Below are positions 16,764-42,196 of a DNA stretch of 64,000 nucleotides, in pieces. Source of the stretch: Vibrio atlanticus. GTDB taxonomy: Bacteria; Pseudomonadota; Gammaproteobacteria; Enterobacterales; Vibrionaceae. The position numbers and the translations under genes are program-made. The DNA lies in contig NZ_AP025460.1 in the NCBI RefSeq assembly GCF_024347315.1, positions 124,001-188,000 of the forward strand, written 5' to 3'. How positions within the stretch are numbered: position 1 is the first letter of the stretch; each line of letters starts with the position of its first letter. A model generated the notes under the pieces. The model made no database searches, was not told where the DNA came from, and saw nothing but the letters and a program-made list of their open reading frames with translations.

Positions 16764-16809
16764 TTGAAGTTTTAATATCAACCCTTACAATCCGCGCAAA
16801 CGATTAAAT
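16764..16809 (+). promoter_or_regulatory. Promoter with PurR-like operator for the purine permease
   Basis: TTGAAG (16764-16769), a 16-bp spacer and TACAAT (16786-16791) form a good sigma-70 promoter with a start expected near 16798. Over that start lies GCGCAAACGATTAAAT (16794-16809), which agrees with the E. coli PurR consensus ANGCAANCGNTTNCNT at nine of eleven fixed positions. Repression by PurR with hypoxanthine or guanine fits the downstream permease. Confidence 0.65.
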
Positions 16810-16810
16810 G

Positions 16811-16873
16811 CTGTATATGTTTGATGAAATGGATCAAATGTTTCTACTACCGAGCCTACCTTGGTGACTACAG
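16811..16873 (+). promoter_or_regulatory. Purine riboswitch aptamer, guanine type
   Basis: The sequence folds as a purine aptamer. P1 is CTGTA/TACAG (16811-16815 with 16869-16873). P2 is TTTGAT/ATCAAA with loop GAAATGG. J2/3 is TGTTTCTACT, close to the conserved GTTTCTACC. P3 is ACCGA/TTGGT with loop GCCTACC, so the two loops offer GG and CC for the kissing contact. J3/1 is GAC, and the C at 16868 corresponds to C74 of the B. subtilis xpt aptamer, which selects guanine or hypoxanthine rather than adenine. J1/2 is one base shorter than usual. Downstream, CTACA (16868-16872) can pair with TGTAG (16881-16885), a plausible switch that breaks P1. Confidence 0.78.
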
Positions 16874-16948
16874 TTTTTAGTGTAGAGATCCCTCTATTCT
16901 CACAGCATTTGAATCTCAAATTTCTTAATTCAATACATAGGTTTTGTT

Positions 16949-32050: not shown

Positions 32051-32359
32051 ATTTCTTCAGATCATAGCTTTGTAAATGAAGTTCAGTGATGTTGTGGGGC
32101 TGAATAGAAGTTAATTGAACAAAAAATAGTCATTTTATTCAAATAACGCTTTACAACCTGGTCAGGATCACCAAGAATGTGCTTGCTCTGTTTTCAGGGT
32201 TATTAAATGAAACATCCAGTTGTAAAGTAAAACCCTTAGTATTGCTTCATTGTTATTCTCAGTGTTTCCCTTGGCTTCATAGATACATTAAATAATTCAA
32301 GCTTTCAGCGCATCGCACTTTTGGCGATTAATTTTTTATTTTTATATAAGGGACACATC

Positions 32360-32572
32360 ATGTCTAACAAAACAAACGGCGTAGTAAAATGGTTTAACGA
32401 AGAGAAAGGCTTCGGTTTCCTAACTCAAGACAACGGCGGCGCTGACGTATTCGTACACTTCCGTGCAATCGCTTCTGAAGGTTTCAAGACTCTTAAAGAA
32501 GGCCAACAAGTGTCTTTCGAAGTAGAGCAAGGCCAAAAAGGTCTTCAAGCTGCAAACGTTGTAGCTCTATAA
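32360..32572 (+). CDS. Cold-shock protein, CspA family
   Basis: The 70-residue protein is a single cold-shock domain that binds single-stranded RNA and DNA, with RNP1 KGFGFLTQ and RNP2 VFVHFRAI. The ATG at 32360 has AAGGGAC 7 nt upstream; an in-frame codon upstream would add an unlikely hydrophobic leader. The about 300 nt before it hold no gene apart from the psiE remnant, so a long structured leader, usual for cspA mRNAs, is likely, although I cannot fix its start. Confidence 0.95.
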
Positions 32573-32583
32573 GATTTTAAGTC

Positions 32584-32611
32584 GGCGCAGGTTGCAATAG
32601 CAACTTGCGTC
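32584..32611 (+). terminator. Terminator of the cold-shock gene
   Basis: GGCGCAGGTTGC (32584-32595) pairs with GCAACTTGCGTC (32600-32611), including two G-U pairs, around AATA; a T/C-rich stretch follows. Confidence 0.6.
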
Positions 32612-32810
32612 ACTTTCTCTCTCAAACCAGTTTCCCCTCAGTTTTACCGTAACATTCTCCTCCACTTGCAACACCTCCTCTAAATATTAAAAATCCTTTT
32701 GTACACCTGATCAGTTCTATCTATCGCTGTATCTATTTTTTGTGCTAAGTACATCTCCTGCGTAACAACCTGCTCAACTTACTCATCCTGATTGTCATTA
32801 TTGTATCCAT

Positions 32811-32900: not shown

Positions 32901-32920
32901 TATTCAATGTTCTGGATCTG
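32901..32920. repeat. attL of the yicC island
   Basis: TATTCAATGTTCTGGATCTG, identical to 41331-41350. The preceding base (32900) is T, so in the empty site the yicC reading frame would read GAA TAA, still a stop. Confidence 0.92.
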
Positions 32921-33101: not shown

Positions 33102-33470
33102 TCAAAACGATAAATCTGAGGAATCATCCCATTGATGTCTTTTGAGCTCAGCTAGAGCTGTGGCTCGTTCTCCCTCACGGGGAATACCATTCAGTCTTTC
33201 GTGATGAGAGCGAGGACAGTACGCGTACATATCAGAAGATTCAAATTTTCTAATCATATCTTGCTTAAAAAGCTCTACTTCATGTAAGAACTCTTCCGAG
33301 CGACTTAGATCACCATTTATGATTAATCTTTTAAAGACCTCTTGGATTAGTTCATAGTATTGATCATGCATGATGCTGAAGTAGGGATGACTTATATGAG
33401 TATCCCTTAGTTCCTTTTTATAGTTATGTAGTGCATTAATCATTGTTTTTTCGTTATTTACCAAGCTCAT
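33102..33470 (-). CDS. Hypothetical protein cotranscribed with the relaxase
   Basis: I do not recognise this 122-residue protein. It appears helical and charged (LHNYKKELRDTHISHPYFSIMHDQYYELIQEVFKRL), and the C-terminal part holds YAYCPRSHHERL, with a lone Cys and His pair that does not make a clear zinc site. Its start overlaps the end of the relaxase gene by 17 bp, so the two are translationally coupled and probably work together, for example in DNA processing or mobilization. No signal peptide or membrane helix is seen. Confidence 0.65.
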   Translation of the reverse strand: MSLVNNEKTMINALHNYKKELRDTHISHPYFSIMHDQYYELIQEVFKRLIINGDLSRSEEFLHEVELFKQDMIRKFESSDMYAYCPRSHHERLNGIPREGERATALAELKRHQWDDSSDLSF

Positions 33471-34701: not shown

Positions 34702-35007
34702 TTAAATTGAGCAATTTCCTTTCCTTCTTTTCCTTCCTATTTCAAACATACTTTTTACTTCTTTTTCAAGCTCATCTCTATCGACTTGATAGCTGTTGGC
34801 TATATGTTCGATGCTTTTGCAATGTTGCCACATGACGCGAGGGCTAAACTCAATTTGATTTTCATATTTTGTACAACATCGTTCCCTCTCTTTATGTTTA
34901 TCAATGATGAAGTAAGTGTTGCAGATCCATTCGCCCTTAGGTGACTTCTTTCCTCTCAGTCGGCTTATGTACTCTTGTGCGGCCATCATCAATGTTAATT
35001 TACTCAT
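34702..35007 (-). CDS. Hypothetical island protein
   Basis: This 101-residue protein has no family that I recognise. It is basic, with CCTKYENQIEFSPRVMWQHCKSIEHIANSYQVDRDELEKEV in the middle and a Lys/Arg-rich end (GRKRRKGNCSI). The ordering of short helices could form a DNA-binding fold, but that is a guess. It lies 66 bp downstream of the AlpA-type gene on the same strand. Confidence 0.6.
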   Translation of the reverse strand: MSKLTLMMAAQEYISRLRGKKSPKGEWICNTYFIIDKHKERERCCTKYENQIEFSPRVMWQHCKSIEHIANSYQVDRDELEKEVKSMFEIGRKRRKGNCSI

Positions 35008-35418: not shown

Positions 35419-36111
35419 TTGGAAGGTAATAGAAAGCTTCTTGAGCTAATAGTTGATGCAGCTAATGGCGGTGAAAGGGAATTTAACAAGCTGGTGACTC
35501 TTTATTCAGAACGAGTTCATCTGGAAATTTCTAAATTCATGAAAAAAAACGACTTTCATAAGATACTCTACGTAGACTATGAAATGGCAATTGACGATGT
35601 AGCTGCAACCGTTTGGTTAGAAATGCACAAGACTATCAAAAGGGGGAAGTTGTCTTTTGACGAGGTAAGCTCGTTTAATAATTACCTAGAAATTGTCTGT
35701 CGTCATAGGACTTATAGGTTTATGGCGAAGCGAATATCCCACCGTACGTATAAAGGAAAGTTGATAGAGCAAAAGCATGAGTACAGTGATGATAATGATA
35801 TAGGAAAGTTAATTGGAGATAGAAGAATCAATGATTCAAACCGAAAAATGATTAGGTTTGAAAGCCTAGATGAAATGGAAGGAGTGCTTGAATCTATAAA
35901 TAGACAGTCTCCTGAAGACGCATTGATTGACGAACAACTATCCCGAACAATTTTGGAGAGCCTTACAGAGCAAGAGCGTAATGTATTTGAGCTTATGCTG
36001 GAAAAAGATTATCAAACAGATGTTGCCAATGAGCTGGGTGTGGATGTAAGGACTATTTTTAACAGAGTTAAAGCTATTGAAACTAAGGCAAAAAGGCATC
36101 GAAGAAAATAA
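35419..36111 (+). CDS. Sigma-70-like (ECF-type) regulator
   Basis: The 230-residue protein begins at a TTG with AAGGG 6 nt upstream. Residues about 15-100 look like sigma region 2 (GEREFNKLVTLYSERVHLEI, VAATVWLEMHKTI) and residues 175-226 like region 4 with a helix-turn-helix (LTEQERNVFELMLEKDYQTDVANELGVDVRTIFNRVK). No anti-sigma gene is next to it. It directly precedes the retron promoter region and may drive island genes, but I see no target promoter motif that I can trust. Confidence 0.72.
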   Translation: MEGNRKLLELIVDAANGGEREFNKLVTLYSERVHLEISKFMKKNDFHKILYVDYEMAIDDVAATVWLEMHKTIKRGKLSFDEVSSFNNYLEIVCRHRTYRFMAKRISHRTYKGKLIEQKHEYSDDNDIGKLIGDRRINDSNRKMIRFESLDEMEGVLESINRQSPEDALIDEQLSRTILESLTEQERNVFELMLEKDYQTDVANELGVDVRTIFNRVKAIETKAKRHRRK

Positions 36112-36237
36112 CGTGTCAGTGTTACTTTTGATTTATCTTTAGTTAATGATTAGTAAGCCTTTGTTTAATATTTATTTTTTCCGAAAATCGATACTAACAA
36201 GTGATATTTTTAAATTAGATAGTACTATTAAGAGCTT

Positions 36238-36266
36238 TTGCTTTCTTTTACCGAATCAACTAAAAT
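36238..36266 (+). promoter_or_regulatory. Promoter of the retron RNA
   Basis: TTGCTT (36238-36243), a 17-bp spacer and TAAAAT (36261-36266) form a sigma-70-type promoter. The expected start, about 36272, coincides with the first base of the a1 repeat. Confidence 0.7.
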
Positions 36267-36271
36267 CAGGT

Positions 36272-36453
36272 AGCTCTTTAGTGTAATTTAGATTGAATTT
36301 CAAAAGTTTAGTCTAGTCTGGCGATGCGCCAAACTCTCATTTATTGGGCACATTTGCAGTTGCGGAACAACATTTTAGACCCGTAACCGCTGCTCATGCT
36401 TCACAGACGCTTACGGATCTAAAATGTTATTCCGCGGCTTCTAGTAAAGAGCT
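36272..36453 (+). ncRNA. Retron msr-msd RNA
   Basis: The flanking inverted repeats a1 (AGCTCTTTA, 36272-36280) and a2 (TAAAGAGCT, 36445-36453) are perfectly complementary. The G after a1 (36281, in TTTAG) is the probable branching guanosine. The msr contains the small hairpin TGGCG-ATG-CGCCA (36319-36331). The msd holds a long hairpin: 36362-36386 with 36411-36435, 25-nt arms with 23 pairs, two C-A mismatches and a 24-nt loop. The reverse transcriptase gene follows, so reverse transcription would give a branched msDNA of roughly 80-90 nt. Exact ends of the DNA are inferred. Confidence 0.9.
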
Positions 36454-36457
36454 CTGT

Positions 36458-36485
36458 GTGACTTGGGAGCTTTCTCCCAAGTCAC
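36458..36485 (+). other. Hairpin between retron RNA and reverse transcriptase gene
   Basis: GTGACTTGGGAG (36458-36469) pairs perfectly with CTCCCAAGTCAC (36474-36485) around CTTT. Only CTTTAAC follows, with no real T-run, so it may be an attenuator or a processing or stability element that separates the RNA from the mRNA. Confidence 0.65.
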
Positions 36486-36506
36486 CTTTAACAAAACAAG
36501 AACTTA

Positions 36507-37451
36507 ATGGATTTGAAACTTTATCAATACCTTAACGAACGGAATCTAAACTTCAAAAGCCTTCTTGAAGCTACTCCGTCTAAACACTATAAGGTTTATA
36601 AGATCCCAAAAAAGCGCCTAGGTTTTAGAACCATTGCGCAACCCACGCCTGCCGTAAAAATTATCCAAAAAGAAATAGTAGATTACCTAACGCCTAAAGT
36701 ATCGATACATACTTCTGCAACAGCTTACGTTCCCGGAAGAAGTGTTAAGGATAATGCTCTTGTACATGTTAAGTCCAACTTCTTGCTTAAGGTCGACTTA
36801 GAAAATTTCTTTAATAACATCACACCTAAAATGCTATTTAAGTCATTGAAAAAACAGGGTATTGTTGTTTCCGGGGTGGATCTTATTGTATTGCAGCAAT
36901 TTTTATTTTGGAACATTAGTAAGAAAAGAAGTGGAAAGCTAGCTTTAAGTGTAGGAGCTCCAAGTTCACCTTTTGTGTCAAATGTGGTTATGCTTTCTTT
37001 TGATGAGAGAATGACCAAACTATGTAGGAAGTCAGGAATAAACTATAGTCGTTATGCTGATGACTTGACTTTCTCTACGACCCAGAAAGGGCTTCTCTTT
37101 GAGCATTTATTTGTTGTACGAAAGGCACTGAAGAAAGAGTTTGGTGCAAGGCTAGTTTTGAATGAGTCCAAAACCGTTTTCTCCTCTAAAGCGCATAATA
37201 GACATGTGACCGGGATAACTTTAACTAACAATAACAAAATCTCACTAGGTAGAGAGAGAAAGCGATACATCTCAGCTTTAGTTCATAAGTTTAAGCTTGG
37301 TTTGCTAGATGTAGAAGACACCCTCCATCTACAAGGACTCATATCGTATGCAAATCATATAGAAGCGAGCTTTGTTCAAAAAATGTCAATCAAATATGGT
37401 GATAATGTTTTGACTGAAATCATCAAATATTCTGGAGAGAATGATGTCTAG
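36507..37451 (+). CDS. Retron reverse transcriptase
   Basis: The 314-residue enzyme copies the msd part of the RNA into single-stranded DNA, primed from the 2'-OH of the branching G. Retron-specific marks are NAXXH as NALVH (residues 83-87) and VTG (234-236, HVTGITLT). Polymerase motifs are KVDLENFF with Asp97, the GAPSSP motif (150-155) and YADD (183-186) with two catalytic Asp residues. The basic C-terminus with RERKRYISALVHKFK recognises msr. The size fits retron RTs. It overlaps the ATPase gene and forms one operon with it and the HNH gene. Confidence 0.96.
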   Translation: MDLKLYQYLNERNLNFKSLLEATPSKHYKVYKIPKKRLGFRTIAQPTPAVKIIQKEIVDYLTPKVSIHTSATAYVPGRSVKDNALVHVKSNFLLKVDLENFFNNITPKMLFKSLKKQGIVVSGVDLIVLQQFLFWNISKKRSGKLALSVGAPSSPFVSNVVMLSFDERMTKLCRKSGINYSRYADDLTFSTTQKGLLFEHLFVVRKALKKEFGARLVLNESKTVFSSKAHNRHVTGITLTNNNKISLGRERKRYISALVHKFKLGLLDVEDTLHLQGLISYANHIEASFVQKMSIKYGDNVLTEIIKYSGENDV

Positions 37452-39069
37452 CACGCTAAGTCGGCAAATTAAGCAGGTTATGTCTAAATCAGAGTCTGGT
37501 AGCTTCGCAGCTTCAGCGCAGCTAGTTGAAATTTTTGAAGGTGGTTTGATGGGAGCCCCTATTGATGAATCTAAAGTTCAACACTACCGTCTTAAGTGTG
37601 CAGAACAATTAGCAAGTGCTAGTTTGAGGCTTTCTTCAATTAAACTCATTGATTATCGTGGGTTTTCAAACATTGAAATCCCCTTTAATAAAAAATCAAA
37701 TACGATTGTTATTATTGGAAACAATGGTAGCGGTAAGTCGAGTGTACTGAACGCTATTCAAAAATCTTTAACGCACTTTGTATCTCGATTATCCACAAGA
37801 TCTTACAATGGTGATCAGTTGGATGAGTTTGATATAGCTGTCGGTGCTAACTACGCAACTGTTATTCCAGAGTTTCAAGTTGATGGAACTAATTTTAGCT
37901 TTGAGTTATCTCAAAGTAGACCAATGCTCGAGCCTAAGAAAAAAAGTAAGTTCAAAGAGCTAAATGACATCGGGAACTTGTATCGACTTGCTAATACTGT
38001 GAATGAAGACCTTTCATTTCCACTTTTGGCGAGTTACACCGTAGAAAGAGCTAACGATGTTACGACCAAAGATATAGAAGAATCTGAAGAGATTCTGAGT
38101 AACCAAACTTGGGATAAGTCGAAAGCATATAGTAAGAGTTTGACAGGTAAAGCTGACTTTAAGTTGTTTTTTCGATGGTTTAAGGAGCAGGTTGAGTCGG
38201 AAAATGAGGAAGGTAGTGAAGTTAGGGTTATAAAGGCCAAAATTGAATCTAAAGAGGATGAGATAAATAGCAAATTAATGACCTCGATTCTATCAGACCC
38301 TAAGACTGCGGCTGTGGGAGAAGGATTAATAATGCAATATCGAGAGCAGATAAACATCCTTCAAGAAGAGCTCAATCAAAAATCCAACATTGGTAACAAA
38401 GCGCTAGATAGTGTTAGAAATGCTGTCTATAAGTTCCTTCCTGGGTTTTCCGACTTAAAACTCAAAAGAGCGCCATTAGATATGGTTATCAATAAAGATG
38501 GTCAGGAATTTAGTGTGTTGCAATTGTCACAAGGTGAAAAAAGCCTTTTGGCTCTAGTTGCCGATATTTCTAGAAGATTGACAATGTTGAACCCTTTGCT
38601 AAGCAATCCTTTAGAGGGTAGTGGATTAGTACTAATTGACGAAGTAGATCTTCACCTCCACCCTTCTTGGCAACAGAAAGTTATTCAACGTTTAGAGAAT
38701 ACTTTTCCTAATATTCAATTCATAGTTACAACTCATAGCCCTCAGGTATGTCATACACTGGATAGCGATAATATATGGTTACTGAAAGATGGTAAAAAAT
38801 TTAAAGCTCCTAAAGGGGTTAGAGGTGCTATATCTTCATGGGTATTGAGAAACCTTTTTTATGTAGAAGAGCGGCCACCTGAAGATGAAATAACTCAACT
38901 ACTTAGTAGATATAAAAAGTTGGTTTATGCTGATAGGTATAATACTGAAGATGCTAGAAGTATGAGAAAAGTGCTAATCGATAACTTTGGTAAAGATTAC
39001 GATACCATCATTGAACTAGACCTTTATATTGAGAACAAAGAGTGGGAGCAAGAGTTTGAGGACGATTAA
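37444..39069 (+). CDS. ptuA: PtuA-like ATPase of the retron defence system
   Basis: This 541-residue ABC-type/SMC-like ATPase has Walker A IGNNGSGKS, signature LSQGEKSLLALVADI, Walker B GLVLIDEVDLHLHP and the His switch VTTHSPQ. A long insert (about residues 200-315) with QVESENEEGSEVRVIKAKIESKEDEI is likely a coiled coil. Together with an HNH nuclease it matches PtuA of the Septu system, which in type I-A retrons (Ec78, Vc95) is joined to an RT. I use the second of two adjacent ATGs because GGAG is 6 nt upstream. It overlaps the RT gene by 8 bp. Confidence 0.92.
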   Translation: MSSTLSRQIKQVMSKSESGSFAASAQLVEIFEGGLMGAPIDESKVQHYRLKCAEQLASASLRLSSIKLIDYRGFSNIEIPFNKKSNTIVIIGNNGSGKSSVLNAIQKSLTHFVSRLSTRSYNGDQLDEFDIAVGANYATVIPEFQVDGTNFSFELSQSRPMLEPKKKSKFKELNDIGNLYRLANTVNEDLSFPLLASYTVERANDVTTKDIEESEEILSNQTWDKSKAYSKSLTGKADFKLFFRWFKEQVESENEEGSEVRVIKAKIESKEDEINSKLMTSILSDPKTAAVGEGLIMQYREQINILQEELNQKSNIGNKALDSVRNAVYKFLPGFSDLKLKRAPLDMVINKDGQEFSVLQLSQGEKSLLALVADISRRLTMLNPLLSNPLEGSGLVLIDEVDLHLHPSWQQKVIQRLENTFPNIQFIVTTHSPQVCHTLDSDNIWLLKDGKKFKAPKGVRGAISSWVLRNLFYVEERPPEDEITQLLSRYKKLVYADRYNTEDARSMRKVLIDNFGKDYDTIIELDLYIENKEWEQEFEDD

Positions 39070-39829
39070 TAAATCTACTGATGACAATATGCTCACTGAC
39101 TATGCTTCTGAATTCCCCAATGCTGAATGGGACGACTTTAGAACACACAATAATGGTGAATCGTATACTGTTATTAAAAACCTAATTTTCTTAGAGCAAT
39201 ATGAAATATGTGCGTATTGCGAAATTAGTTTAAAAGATGAAGAACCTCATAATAAAAGAGTAGAGCATTTTAGATCTAAATCGGACCATTCCACTACGCA
39301 TAACGTTCATTTAGACTGGTTTAACCTTATAGGTGTCTGTTTAGGCGGAACAGACTATAAAAATAGAGAGAAATACGATCTTCCCGAGAACTTAAGTTGT
39401 GATTCCCACAAGTCACATTTTGAAGGTGTAAAAAAAGTCACAGATAAAGATTGGAATGGGAAAGTACTTTCGCCTTTGAACATGCCTTGTGATCAAGCTT
39501 TGTTTTTTTTTGAAAAGGAATCTGGAAGGTTAATCCCGAATGAAGTCAAATGTAATCAAATCGTAATTGAGGGTAACTTGCATGGTTCTACGTTATTACT
39601 CGTAGAGGAGACAATAAAGGTCTTCAATTTGAATTGTGACCGTCTGAACAAAGCTCGTTTGAAATTATTTCGCCAACTTCAACATAAAATAAAAGAAGCT
39701 CGAAAAAATGGAGATTTGGGAATCATTGAAAGATTTGTTGCTAGTTGGAGGCGAGATTCACCGCTATTTTTTCAAACGAGCAGGGATGCGATACTGTTAG
39801 ATAATAAGATTACAGCACGTTATTTGTGA
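39056..39829 (+). CDS. ptuB: PtuB-like HNH nuclease of the retron defence system
   Basis: The 257-residue protein starts at a TTG with GGAG 7 nt upstream and overlaps the ATPase gene by 14 bp; an ATG at 39029 would add nine residues. The HNH domain has EICAYCEISL (CxxC zinc pair), RVEHFRSKSDH (catalytic His), and NLIGVCLGG followed by SCDSHKSHFEG. PtuB is the nuclease part of Septu. In retron-Septu it is held inactive by the msDNA and is released when a phage disturbs that DNA; which substrate it cuts here is inferred from the Ec78 system. Confidence 0.92.
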   Translation: MRTINKSTDDNMLTDYASEFPNAEWDDFRTHNNGESYTVIKNLIFLEQYEICAYCEISLKDEEPHNKRVEHFRSKSDHSTTHNVHLDWFNLIGVCLGGTDYKNREKYDLPENLSCDSHKSHFEGVKKVTDKDWNGKVLSPLNMPCDQALFFFEKESGRLIPNEVKCNQIVIEGNLHGSTLLLVEETIKVFNLNCDRLNKARLKLFRQLQHKIKEARKNGDLGIIERFVASWRRDSPLFFQTSRDAILLDNKITARYL

Positions 39830-39912: not shown

Positions 39913-41145
39913 TTAGGCTATATCTGAAACCTGTATTGCTAGTTTTTTTAGTGCTTCTGCTCTCTCACTAAAATAGTCATAATGGTCATATACACTTTCT
40001 ACACCTTTGAGTTTGTGGTTAAGGCATTTCTCTGCAATATGAGGGAGCACTCTCAATTCTGCTAATAAGCTACGACATGTCCTCCTTAAATCGTGGATAA
40101 CAAAGTGATCAATCCCTTTATTACCGAGTATGTTGGGAAGTTCTCGCTTGGATTTTTTTATGTAACCCTGATTGCCAAATAGTTTTGCTAGAGCATGATT
40201 CAGAGTGTCATCTGAGATATACCCCCGACGTTTACTAAATCTTCTAGAAGGGAATAGGTATTCGGAACCGTTTGCTTTGATTGATAGCTCTCTGAACCAA
40301 GGTAATACTTCTTCAGGTAGTGGGATAGAGATCGCTTTACCTGTTTTAGTCCGCTCCTCTGGGAGATGCCAAGTTTTGGTTTCAAAGTTGAATTCATTCC
40401 ATTTAGCTGCAATTAATTCCCCTTTTCTAATGCCCAGAGTTACAAGTAAGCAGAATGCTAGATAATTATCTCTGTTAAACACATGATGGTTTTCTCTCAT
40501 TGCATTCAGGGTTATCTCAAGTTCCTTAAAAGATAGACTCCTAGATCGAGATTTCTCACTACCTCCTGCATCTCTAATCGATAGCGCACCAGCGGGGTTA
40601 AACTTAATAGCTCCTTCCTTAATCGCTCTATTAAAGATTTGTTTACAGTAGGCGAGAGCATCGTTGGCAATAGAAGGGCGTCCACTCTGGCTAATTTTGT
40701 CGACGATAGCGAGTATATCTAGAGGTTCAACTTTCTTTATCGAGAGATCTCCAATCATAGGGGCGATTTCTTTTTTATACACTCGTCGTGGTATCTGTGG
40801 GTTTTTTAGTTCACGTTCACATATACTTAACCATTTCTCAGCTATGTTGTTCACAGTGATGTAGGTTTTTCGATTCAGACGTTTTTTTTCTGCAAGTGGA
40901 TCTATGCCTTGATTGATTTTTACTCTTGTTTCTGCCGCTTTATCTCTAGCATCTTTAAGGGATATTTCATCAGCCCTGCTTCCATATCTACCAAGAGTGA
41001 ACTCCTTCCTAGTTTTATTGATGCTATACCTCAGAATCCAAAATCCGGTGCCTTCTGCACTAACTCGGAAGTAGAGACCTCTTCCTAAACTCTTTTTAAC
41101 GGGCTTACCGAGTTTTTGAAGTTTTTTTAGTTCAGAATCTTGCAT
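39913..41145 (-). CDS. int: Tyrosine integrase of the island
   Basis: The 410-residue recombinase has an N-terminal arm-binding domain (GRGLYFRVSAEGTGFWILRYSINKTRKEFTLGRYG), a SAM-like core-binding domain and the catalytic domain. The catalytic residues are Arg in TLGIRKGEL, the HxxR pair HDLRRT and the tyrosine in HKLKGVESVYDHYDYF. It lies next to attR and reads away from yicC, as expected for P4-type island integrases. It inserts the element at the 20-bp core in yicC and, with a directionality factor, excises it. Confidence 0.95.
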   Translation of the reverse strand: MQDSELKKLQKLGKPVKKSLGRGLYFRVSAEGTGFWILRYSINKTRKEFTLGRYGSRADEISLKDARDKAAETRVKINQGIDPLAEKKRLNRKTYITVNNIAEKWLSICERELKNPQIPRRVYKKEIAPMIGDLSIKKVEPLDILAIVDKISQSGRPSIANDALAYCKQIFNRAIKEGAIKFNPAGALSIRDAGGSEKSRSRSLSFKELEITLNAMRENHHVFNRDNYLAFCLLVTLGIRKGELIAAKWNEFNFETKTWHLPEERTKTGKAISIPLPEEVLPWFRELSIKANGSEYLFPSRRFSKRRGYISDDTLNHALAKLFGNQGYIKKSKRELPNILGNKGIDHFVIHDLRRTCRSLLAELRVLPHIAEKCLNHKLKGVESVYDHYDYFSERAEALKKLAIQVSDIA

Positions 41146-41329: not shown

Positions 41330-42196
41330 CTATTCAATGTTCTGGATCTGCTCACGCATCTGTTCGATAAGAACTTTAAGCTCAACGCCCGATGCTGTGA
41401 TGTCTGTGCTGATAGACTTAGATGCTAGCGTGTTTGATTCACGGTTGAACTCTTGCATCATGAAGTCAAGCTTACGGCCACAAGCGCCACCTTTTTTCAA
41501 TACTACATTTGCTTCTTTCACGTGAGAGTCTAGACGGTCTAGCTCTTCTGCTACGTCTGACTTCTGAGCCAGTAGGATAAGCTCTTGTTCAACACGAGAA
41601 CCTTCAAGTTCAATTTTCGCATCTTCAAATTTGGTAAGAAGACGCTCACGTTGCCATTCTAGGATCTCAGGCATGCGTGCACGAACTTTCACGACTTCTT
41701 CAGTGATTGCATCTAAGCGCTGTACGATGAGCGCCTTCATGTTTTCACCTTCACGAGCACGAGCGTCAATGAACTCTGCAATAGCATCGTTGAATGCTTC
41801 CAAAAGATCTTTGTTGATGGCATCCATGTCTTGCTCTGGCGTTTCCATCACGCCAGGCCAATTCATGACTTGGAATGGGTTCAGACGGCTGTCTTCACCT
41901 GTCATCGTCATTACTTGGTTCGCAGCATTGATTACTTGCTGAGCCAAACCTTCGTTAATGCTTAACTCGCCTTTCGCTGCTGGGTTTGCTTCAAAACGTA
42001 GGTTACATTCAACCTTGCCGCGCGCTAGACGCTTACGGAAACGCTCACGTAGGATTGGCTCTAAACCACGGAACTGTTCAGGCATACGGAAGTAAGTTTC
42101 TAGGTAGCGTTGGTTTACACTACGGATTTCCCATACTGCTGTACCCCAATCGCCTTTTACTTCTTTGCGCGCGTACGCGGTCATACTATAAATCAT
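41330..42196 (-). CDS. yicC: YicC-family protein (endoribonuclease-like)
   Basis: YicC is a conserved RNA-associated protein; relatives act as endoribonucleases that affect small RNA turnover. I start at MIYSMTAYARKEVKGDWG, which gives 288 residues (E. coli 287); a longer frame upstream has no homology. The C-terminus EFNRESNTLASKSI...MREQIQNIE is intact. The last codons form the attachment core of the island, and the stop is TAG because the third base comes from the island. It is divergent from rph. Confidence 0.95.
   Translation of the reverse strand: MIYSMTAYARKEVKGDWGTAVWEIRSVNQRYLETYFRMPEQFRGLEPILRERFRKRLARGKVECNLRFEANPAAKGELSINEGLAQQVINAANQVMTMTGEDSRLNPFQVMNWPGVMETPEQDMDAINKDLLEAFNDAIAEFIDARAREGENMKALIVQRLDAITEEVVKVRARMPEILEWQRERLLTKFEDAKIELEGSRVEQELILLAQKSDVAEELDRLDSHVKEANVVLKKGGACGRKLDFMMQEFNRESNTLASKSISTDITASGVELKVLIEQMREQIQNIE
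41331..41350. repeat. attR of the yicC island
   Basis: TATTCAATGTTCTGGATCTG covers the last six sense codons and first two bases of the stop of yicC. It is identical to 32901-32920. Confidence 0.92.

Follow-up and report, generated by a model that had tools for sequence, protein, structure and literature searches.

We analysed a stretch of 64,000 nucleotides from Vibrio atlanticus (contig NZ_AP025460.1, positions 124,001 to 188,000, forward strand), referred to here as the window, and focus on a retron-Septu system between window positions 36238 and 39829. The system comprises a retron RNA, with its msr and msd parts, followed by genes for a reverse transcriptase (RT), a PtuA-like ATPase and a PtuB-like HNH nuclease. 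An initial annotation had described a complete system of this kind on a mobile island, and this description holds up: the a1/a2 repeats, the RNA fold, three proteins scoring over curated cut-offs, and attachment (att) repeats with an integrase are all found. The features of the locus are as follows.

36238-36266, plus strand: putative promoter, TTGCTT-17-TAAAAT, 8 of 12 consensus bases
36272-36280, plus strand: a1 repeat AGCTCTTTA, exact complement of a2
36281, plus strand: presumed branching G in TTTAG, from sequence and alignment
36282-36346, plus strand: msr, two hairpins, ending TTTATTG (fold and alignment; sub-threshold Rfam msr match)
36362-36435, plus strand: msd hairpin, its apical loop region with TGCTC at 36391-36395 (inverted repeat, compensatory pairs)
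36445-36453, plus strand: a2 repeat TAAAGAGCT, exact reverse complement of a1 over 9 bp
36507-37451, plus strand: retron RT, 314 amino acids (PADLOC RT_I-A, 1e-128; NF038233, 302.9 over a cut-off of 235)
37441-39069, plus strand: PtuA ATPase, 542 amino acids, from ATG 37441 or 37444 (NF041760, 532 over a cut-off of 500)
39056-39829, plus strand: PtuB HNH nuclease, 257 amino acids from TTG 39056 (NF041761, 164.6 over a cut-off of 150, in a longer form)

Judged from its sequence, the locus is a type I-A retron-Septu operon in both anatomy and membership. All three proteins exceed the curated NCBIfam cut-offs (retron St85 RT, PtuA and PtuB families). Among PADLOC models the RT is matched best by RT_I-A, and strong scores are also given by ATPase_I-A and HNH_I-A beside the Septu PtuA and PtuB models; the comparison with retron RT families that had been proposed as a check favours a retron RT. 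The motifs named at the outset are present, namely NALVH, YADD and VTG in the RT, the ABC motifs of the ATPase (Walker A, LSQGEK, Walker B and THSPQ), and the CxxC of the HNH nuclease in the form CAYC, together with VEHF. These are catalytic motifs of the respective families, the RT motifs being the retron set NAxxH/YADD/VTG. The gene overlaps first given as 8 and 14 bp stand as possible values, each with an alternative: the RT and PtuA genes overlap by 8 or 11 bp, depending on the choice between two ATGs, and the PtuA and PtuB genes by 14 bp (TTG 39056) or 41 bp, if the longer form of PtuB starts at TTG 39029. A GGGAG lies upstream of TTG 39056, and when the longer form is used as the query its alignment to the PtuB of the retron Ec83 begins at that same TTG.

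The RNA bears out the initial annotation in its main elements. The 9-bp a1 and a2 repeats and the branching G were read as they are listed above, and this G is invariant in all six aligned Ec83-type RNA rows (two of which are near-copies). The msd hairpin, previously given a 25-nt arm, is an inverted repeat of 28 nt (36362-36389 and 36408-36435) with 89% complementarity. The whole RNA (36272-36453) folds at -71 kcal/mol (z -6.06), with none of 200 shuffles equally good. The six Ec83-type RNAs (the same two near-copies included) can be aligned along their length, and at least one compensatory double change is seen in 14 of the 54 consensus pairs. Some points weigh against this picture. In a covariance-model check, also suggested beforehand, Rfam msr matches 36273-36352, but at 43.9 bits, below the gathering score of 52, which the homologous RNAs of loci L001, L022, L024 and L042 do reach. 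The promoter claimed at 36238-36266 exists as a pair of hexamers, but it is weak overall (TTGCTT has 3 of 6 consensus bases), and a scan of 36050-36520 at a threshold of 9/12, with at least 4 per hexamer, found none; we keep it just as a plausible candidate.

By sequence, the closest known retron is Ec83 (Retron-Eco4, type I-A; PDB 9e8z, 9e90, 9e91 and 9o4a) and not Ec78 (Retron-Eco7, type I-A; PDB 9l7p, 9nnb and 9vhe). The best solved-structure matches are Ec83 chains for the RT (354 bits), PtuA (634 bits) and PtuB (230 bits). Locus L024 of E. coli NCTC11023 serves here as the Ec83 locus because its PtuA is identical over 542 residues to 9e8z_C and its RT matches the solved Ec83 RT over the full 312 residues (687 bits). 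It has the same order, RNA-RT-PtuA-PtuB, and the proteins of the two loci are 52% (RT), 51% (PtuA) and 44% (PtuB) identical. The msr core, the a1/a2 repeats and the branching context are also similar, whereas the msd of the Vibrio locus exceeds that of L024 by about 15 nt and has an apical insert of 16 nt, and L024 lies beside a tRNA-Thr gene rather than in an island in yicC. Ec78 shares the operon type, with an RT match of about 270 bits, but its PtuA reaches at most 185 bits and no Ec78-named chain is among the four PtuB structure matches at E up to 0.001. The design had at first been likened to that of Ec78 and Vc95. The type I-A assignment with PtuA and PtuB stands, but the likeness to these two in particular does not, as all three proteins are nearest Ec83 (Vc95 lay outside the direct comparison).

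A PtuA tree of 69 rows, some of them copies of one locus, agrees with this kinship. The protein falls in a clade with L022, L135, L024 (Ec83), L025, L001 and L042/L003, with support 100/100; the clade's 11 rows represent seven loci, four rows being copies or pieces of two of them, and L022 and L135 are flagged as long branches of unsure placement. PtuA identity is 51-58% to the Ec83-type rows and at most 37% to all others (own copies aside). Within the genus, 9 of 227 genomes have a PtuA match at E <= 1e-60, and only two of these (the window's own included) are of the Ec83 type, the other seven carrying proteins outside it (206-248 bits); among 369 genomes of the class, the window's own is the only match at that threshold. 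The Ec83 branch is thus uncommon in the sampled genomes. The nearest named RTs are also from Vibrio. A retron of Vibrio phage 10N.261.55.B9_PE001 (L026) likewise carries RT-PtuA-PtuB as cargo of a small mobile genome, with an RT 50% identical to this one but a PtuA just 35% identical.

We are confident that this is a defence operon of the type I-A retron-Septu kind, belonging to the Ec83 branch, that it is cargo of an 8.4-kb element and that it acts by nuclease release on loss of multicopy single-stranded DNA (msDNA). Its priming, inhibited complex, trigger and target are modelled on what other papers report for Ec83 and other retrons. The RT would begin DNA synthesis at the 2'-OH of G36281 and copy the msd into a hairpin DNA of a predicted length of about 98 nt. 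RT and msDNA would then keep the PtuA-PtuB nuclease in an inactive complex, until infection by a phage leads to msDNA loss and the complex disassembles. The released nuclease would cut DNA, and phage growth would be halted. For Ec83, such an 'arrest-and-release' mode is described in a review (PMC12948488), where msDNA keeps PtuAB inactive and infection leads to msDNA loss, PtuAB release and degradation of single-stranded DNA; a commentary (PMC13158370) also gives this mode with single-stranded DNA degradation. The same account of Ec83 is found in a study of Eco8 (PMC12887533), in which Eco4 and Eco7 are both activated by dissociation.

The target is where the two relatives part. Eco7 (Ec78) PtuAB is reported to deplete tRNA-Tyr, while sequencing of transfer RNA (tRNA) with Eco4 (Ec83) PtuAB found no tRNA down-regulated (both PMC11555353). 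An Ec78-like action, with released PtuAB depleting tRNA-Tyr and so aborting infection, would fit the shared type I-A architecture and the seven genus genomes whose PtuA is not of the Ec83 type. We nevertheless regard it as very unlikely, given that RT, PtuA and PtuB are all nearest Ec83 and that the tRNA result for Eco4 goes the other way. Because of this kinship and of the difference between Eco4 and Eco7, the Ec83 mode is predicted here, that is, a nuclease released on msDNA loss rather than depletion of tRNA-Tyr. The operon might also serve mainly as an addiction module that stabilizes the island, with phage defence secondary or lost. The retron is the cargo of a small element, Eco7 acts as a tripartite toxin-antitoxin system (PMC11555353), and by itself the accessory protein of Eco4 is toxic (PMC8989520). 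On the other hand, all genes and motifs examined are intact and Ec83 itself protects against phages (PMC11555353, PMC8989520); we consider a mainly addictive role quite unlikely, and addiction and defence are in any case mutually compatible.

The length and ends of the msDNA were predicted from a rule in which the template runs from just after TTATTG to the base preceding TAAAG.

36347-36444, plus strand: predicted msDNA template, 98 nt (length rule calibrated on the Ec83 locus L024)

The rule gives 83 nt in L024, the size in the name Ec83, and 97-101 nt in the four other loci of Ec83 type whose loop is long. Ec83 is its one calibrated case, because L104, considered as Ec78 for a second calibration, turned out not to be Ec78 and was rejected. 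Templates of 93 nt would presumably correspond to 95 nt (cf. Vc95), an unconfirmed match of names. An msDNA of about 98 nt is thus predicted for this retron, and the 80-90 nt previously suggested is probably too short. Under the rule the msDNA starts with CTAGAA and so differs from Ec83 at TTGA/A, which we take to be the Ec83 cleavage site: this sequence is not at the corresponding 5' position. The difference counts against a full parallel with Ec83, as the cleavage that frees the Ec83 msDNA may be absent here. In Ec83, the msDNA is cut between nucleotides 4 and 5 and is mostly free of RNA (PMC6868368); PMC8989520 likewise describes a 5'-end cut and a mostly RNA-free product. By analogy, the msDNA of this retron is possibly unbranched. 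Since the Ec83 product is mostly RNA-free and about 98 nt are predicted here, an assay for a branched molecule of 80-90 nt, as originally proposed, might fail to detect it. With its longer predicted msDNA, this relative of Ec83 on a Vibrio island can help to show which features of the msDNA are required by the Septu effector.

As a relative of Ec83, the retron system is already known in kind; the part that could be new is a covariation between the msr and the msd loop. X here stands for the nucleotides that directly follow the msr motif TTATTG, and the tests included the final G of that motif. By the length rule, X templates the 3' end of the msDNA.

36346-36350, plus strand: msr segment GGGCA (X), with proposed partner 36391-36395 (family-level covariation)

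A first set of 44 distinct retron RNAs was parsed by pattern; one with an N was dropped, leaving 43, of which 22 representatives lie below 75% identity. In these, X binds its own msd apical loop at a mean of -7.15 kcal/mol and the loops of others at -5.07 kcal/mol (z -5.11, 0 of 20,000 permutations). A second set, with more loci and a looser pattern, yielded 49 RNAs (six new, one old lost); removal of a false hit (L069) and of one parse of 190 nt left 47 RNAs and 23 representatives. The RT locus records at E <= 1e-40 number 133 (many are copies of one locus), and the 38 without a parsed RNA stand outside these counts. In the second set, Watson-Crick pairing gave z 2.98 (48 of 20,000 permutations as good), and allowing G-U raised it to 5.34 (0 of 20,000). 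In 17 of the 23 representatives, X has its best partner no more than 11 nt from the centre of the loop, against an expectation of about 34%. A scan of 25 nine-nucleotide windows, from -60 to +12, confined the signal to -6 to +6.

The representatives (22 or 23) share descent, and discovery and tests share most sequences. Permutation within clusters gave, by single linkage, one cluster of 43 and so equalled the unrestricted test; swaps between sister pairs were used instead. With disjoint pairs matched on the rest of the RNA, the own partner was better in 21 of 23 and worse in two (Wilcoxon p 9e-5).

Several observations weigh against a pairing that holds throughout, beginning with the sister pairs themselves, where four of the 21 favourable ones differ by at most 0.2 kcal/mol (one is printed as 0.0). 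Taken alone, the Vibrio locus gives no significant pairing (1584 of 5000 shuffled loops bind equally well), and the sister pair that it forms with L122 is among the two unfavourable ones. The pairing in Ec83 is weak (-1.6 kcal/mol), as it is in L022, L111, L116, L124 and L130, among others; for L022 and for L124, 15 of the 21 other loops are stronger binders than the own one. Relatives with strong pairing include L034 and L131.

The msd stem measures 21-37 bp and its base lies at most 16 nt from the msr motif, which makes pairing within one folded RNA unlikely and therefore points to a contact between two RNAs, or to one made while the stem is open. We tentatively propose, with confidence a little short of even, that, in retrons of type I-A and in related ones of the St85 family, the msr segment templating the msDNA 3' end pairs as RNA with the msd apical loop, either in trans or with the stem open (during transcription or reverse transcription), and that this pairing could set the end of reverse transcription. 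The complementarity might instead have been selected at the level of the msDNA, whose 3' end would pair with its own loop, or be a leftover of template-driven mutation. Strand symmetry is on the side of such an origin, as any RNA complement is always an msDNA complement too; so is the long stem, which separates both segments in cis. For Eco1, a retron of a different type, Palka et al. (PMC8989520) report by chemical mapping that the loops of P2, P3 and P4c are reactive and that no stem forms at the stop site; they rule out that termination is caused by secondary structure in the RNA, and suggest that the DNA and the remaining template form a tertiary structure. The wobble pairs speak for the RNA instead: G-U raises the signal, as given above, while A-C, its DNA equivalent, lowers it (z 2.12, 377 of 20,000 permutations), which favours RNA-RNA pairing over selection at the DNA level. 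G-U outnumbers A-C by 13 to 1 in the best windows; in non-self pairs, whose composition in itself favours G-U, the counts are 212 to 94. An origin at the msDNA level, or as a leftover of mutation, seems to us rather unlikely.

What makes retron RTs stop at a precise nucleotide is described as not yet understood (PMC8989520). The listings of literature searches, and term searches inside PMC11754653 and PMC8989520, returned no report of msr/loop pairing, with most subscription papers and two 2025 structure papers outside their coverage. The family-wide covariation of msr and msd loop is apparently a new point. If the RNA pairing is true, there would be a base-paired contact at the stop region of another retron group, and compensatory mutations would make the question of the stop testable.

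The operon sits in an element of 8,430 bp between two perfect 20-bp repeats.

32901-32920, no strand: left att repeat TATTCAATGTTCTGGATCTG, identical to the 20-bp copy at 41331
33102-33470, minus strand: open reading frame (ORF), 122 amino acids
33454-34260, minus strand: MobV-like relaxase-like ORF (NF041497, 49.6 bits, cut-off 100)
34702-35007, minus strand: ORF, 101 amino acids
35074-35298, minus strand: AlpA-like excisionase/regulator (PF05930, 41.2 bits over 21; phrog_66)
35419-36111, plus strand: sigma-70-like ORF, small family (TIGR02937, 41.4 bits, slightly under its cut-off of 42.9)
39913-41145, minus strand: tyrosine integrase, yicC-targeting family (PF00589, PF13356, PF22022)
41331-41350, no strand: right att repeat, 20 bp, perfect, overlapping the yicC 3' end

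The right repeat covers the final codons of yicC, and the integrase sits just inside it. A related integrase (E <= 1e-100) is present in 30 of 227 genus genomes, the window's own included, and yicC lies beside it in all 20 loci retrieved from these (L058-L077; own included). The element is integrative and probably mobilizable, although the relaxase-like ORF stays below its cut-off, which weighs against the second property. The yicC-integrating mobilizable genomic islands of Vibrio share the integration at the yicC 3' end and the tyrosine integrase; the present element differs in its MobV-like relaxase-like ORF and its retron cargo. Searches of four family libraries (E up to 0.001) returned nothing for the ORFs at 33102-33470 and 34702-35007.

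The sigma-70-like ORF was considered as a partner of the retron and set aside because its family is tiny; the search for it did not extend to loci of Ec83 type outside the genus. Itself included, the family has five proteins in a search of 5.8 billion and occurs in two of 227 genus genomes, the other copy being a broken piece.

RF02058 (STnc400, a 'Gammaproteobacterial sRNA', that is, small RNA) matches 36355-36495, the msd half plus a2, at 44.8 bits, under its cut-off of 80; rather than being a small RNA of its own, STnc400 probably represents the msd half of a retron transcript. As an observation in its own right, among 17 loci scanned it exceeds the cut-off in L138 alone (311-383, 385-508; 97.8 bits), directly 3' of an msr match. 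Filamentous phages also carry retrons: the operon of Vibrio phage 10N.261.55.B9_PE001 is of type I-A, and Pseudomonas PfAC01 phages (L102/L163) have a St85-type effector with an RT. The host genome holds five RVT_1 matches, one of which (C1:242487-243041) has four stop codons. Elsewhere in the window, matches over cut-off to a purine riboswitch and a cspA thermoregulator lie at 16791-16890 and 32186-32614.

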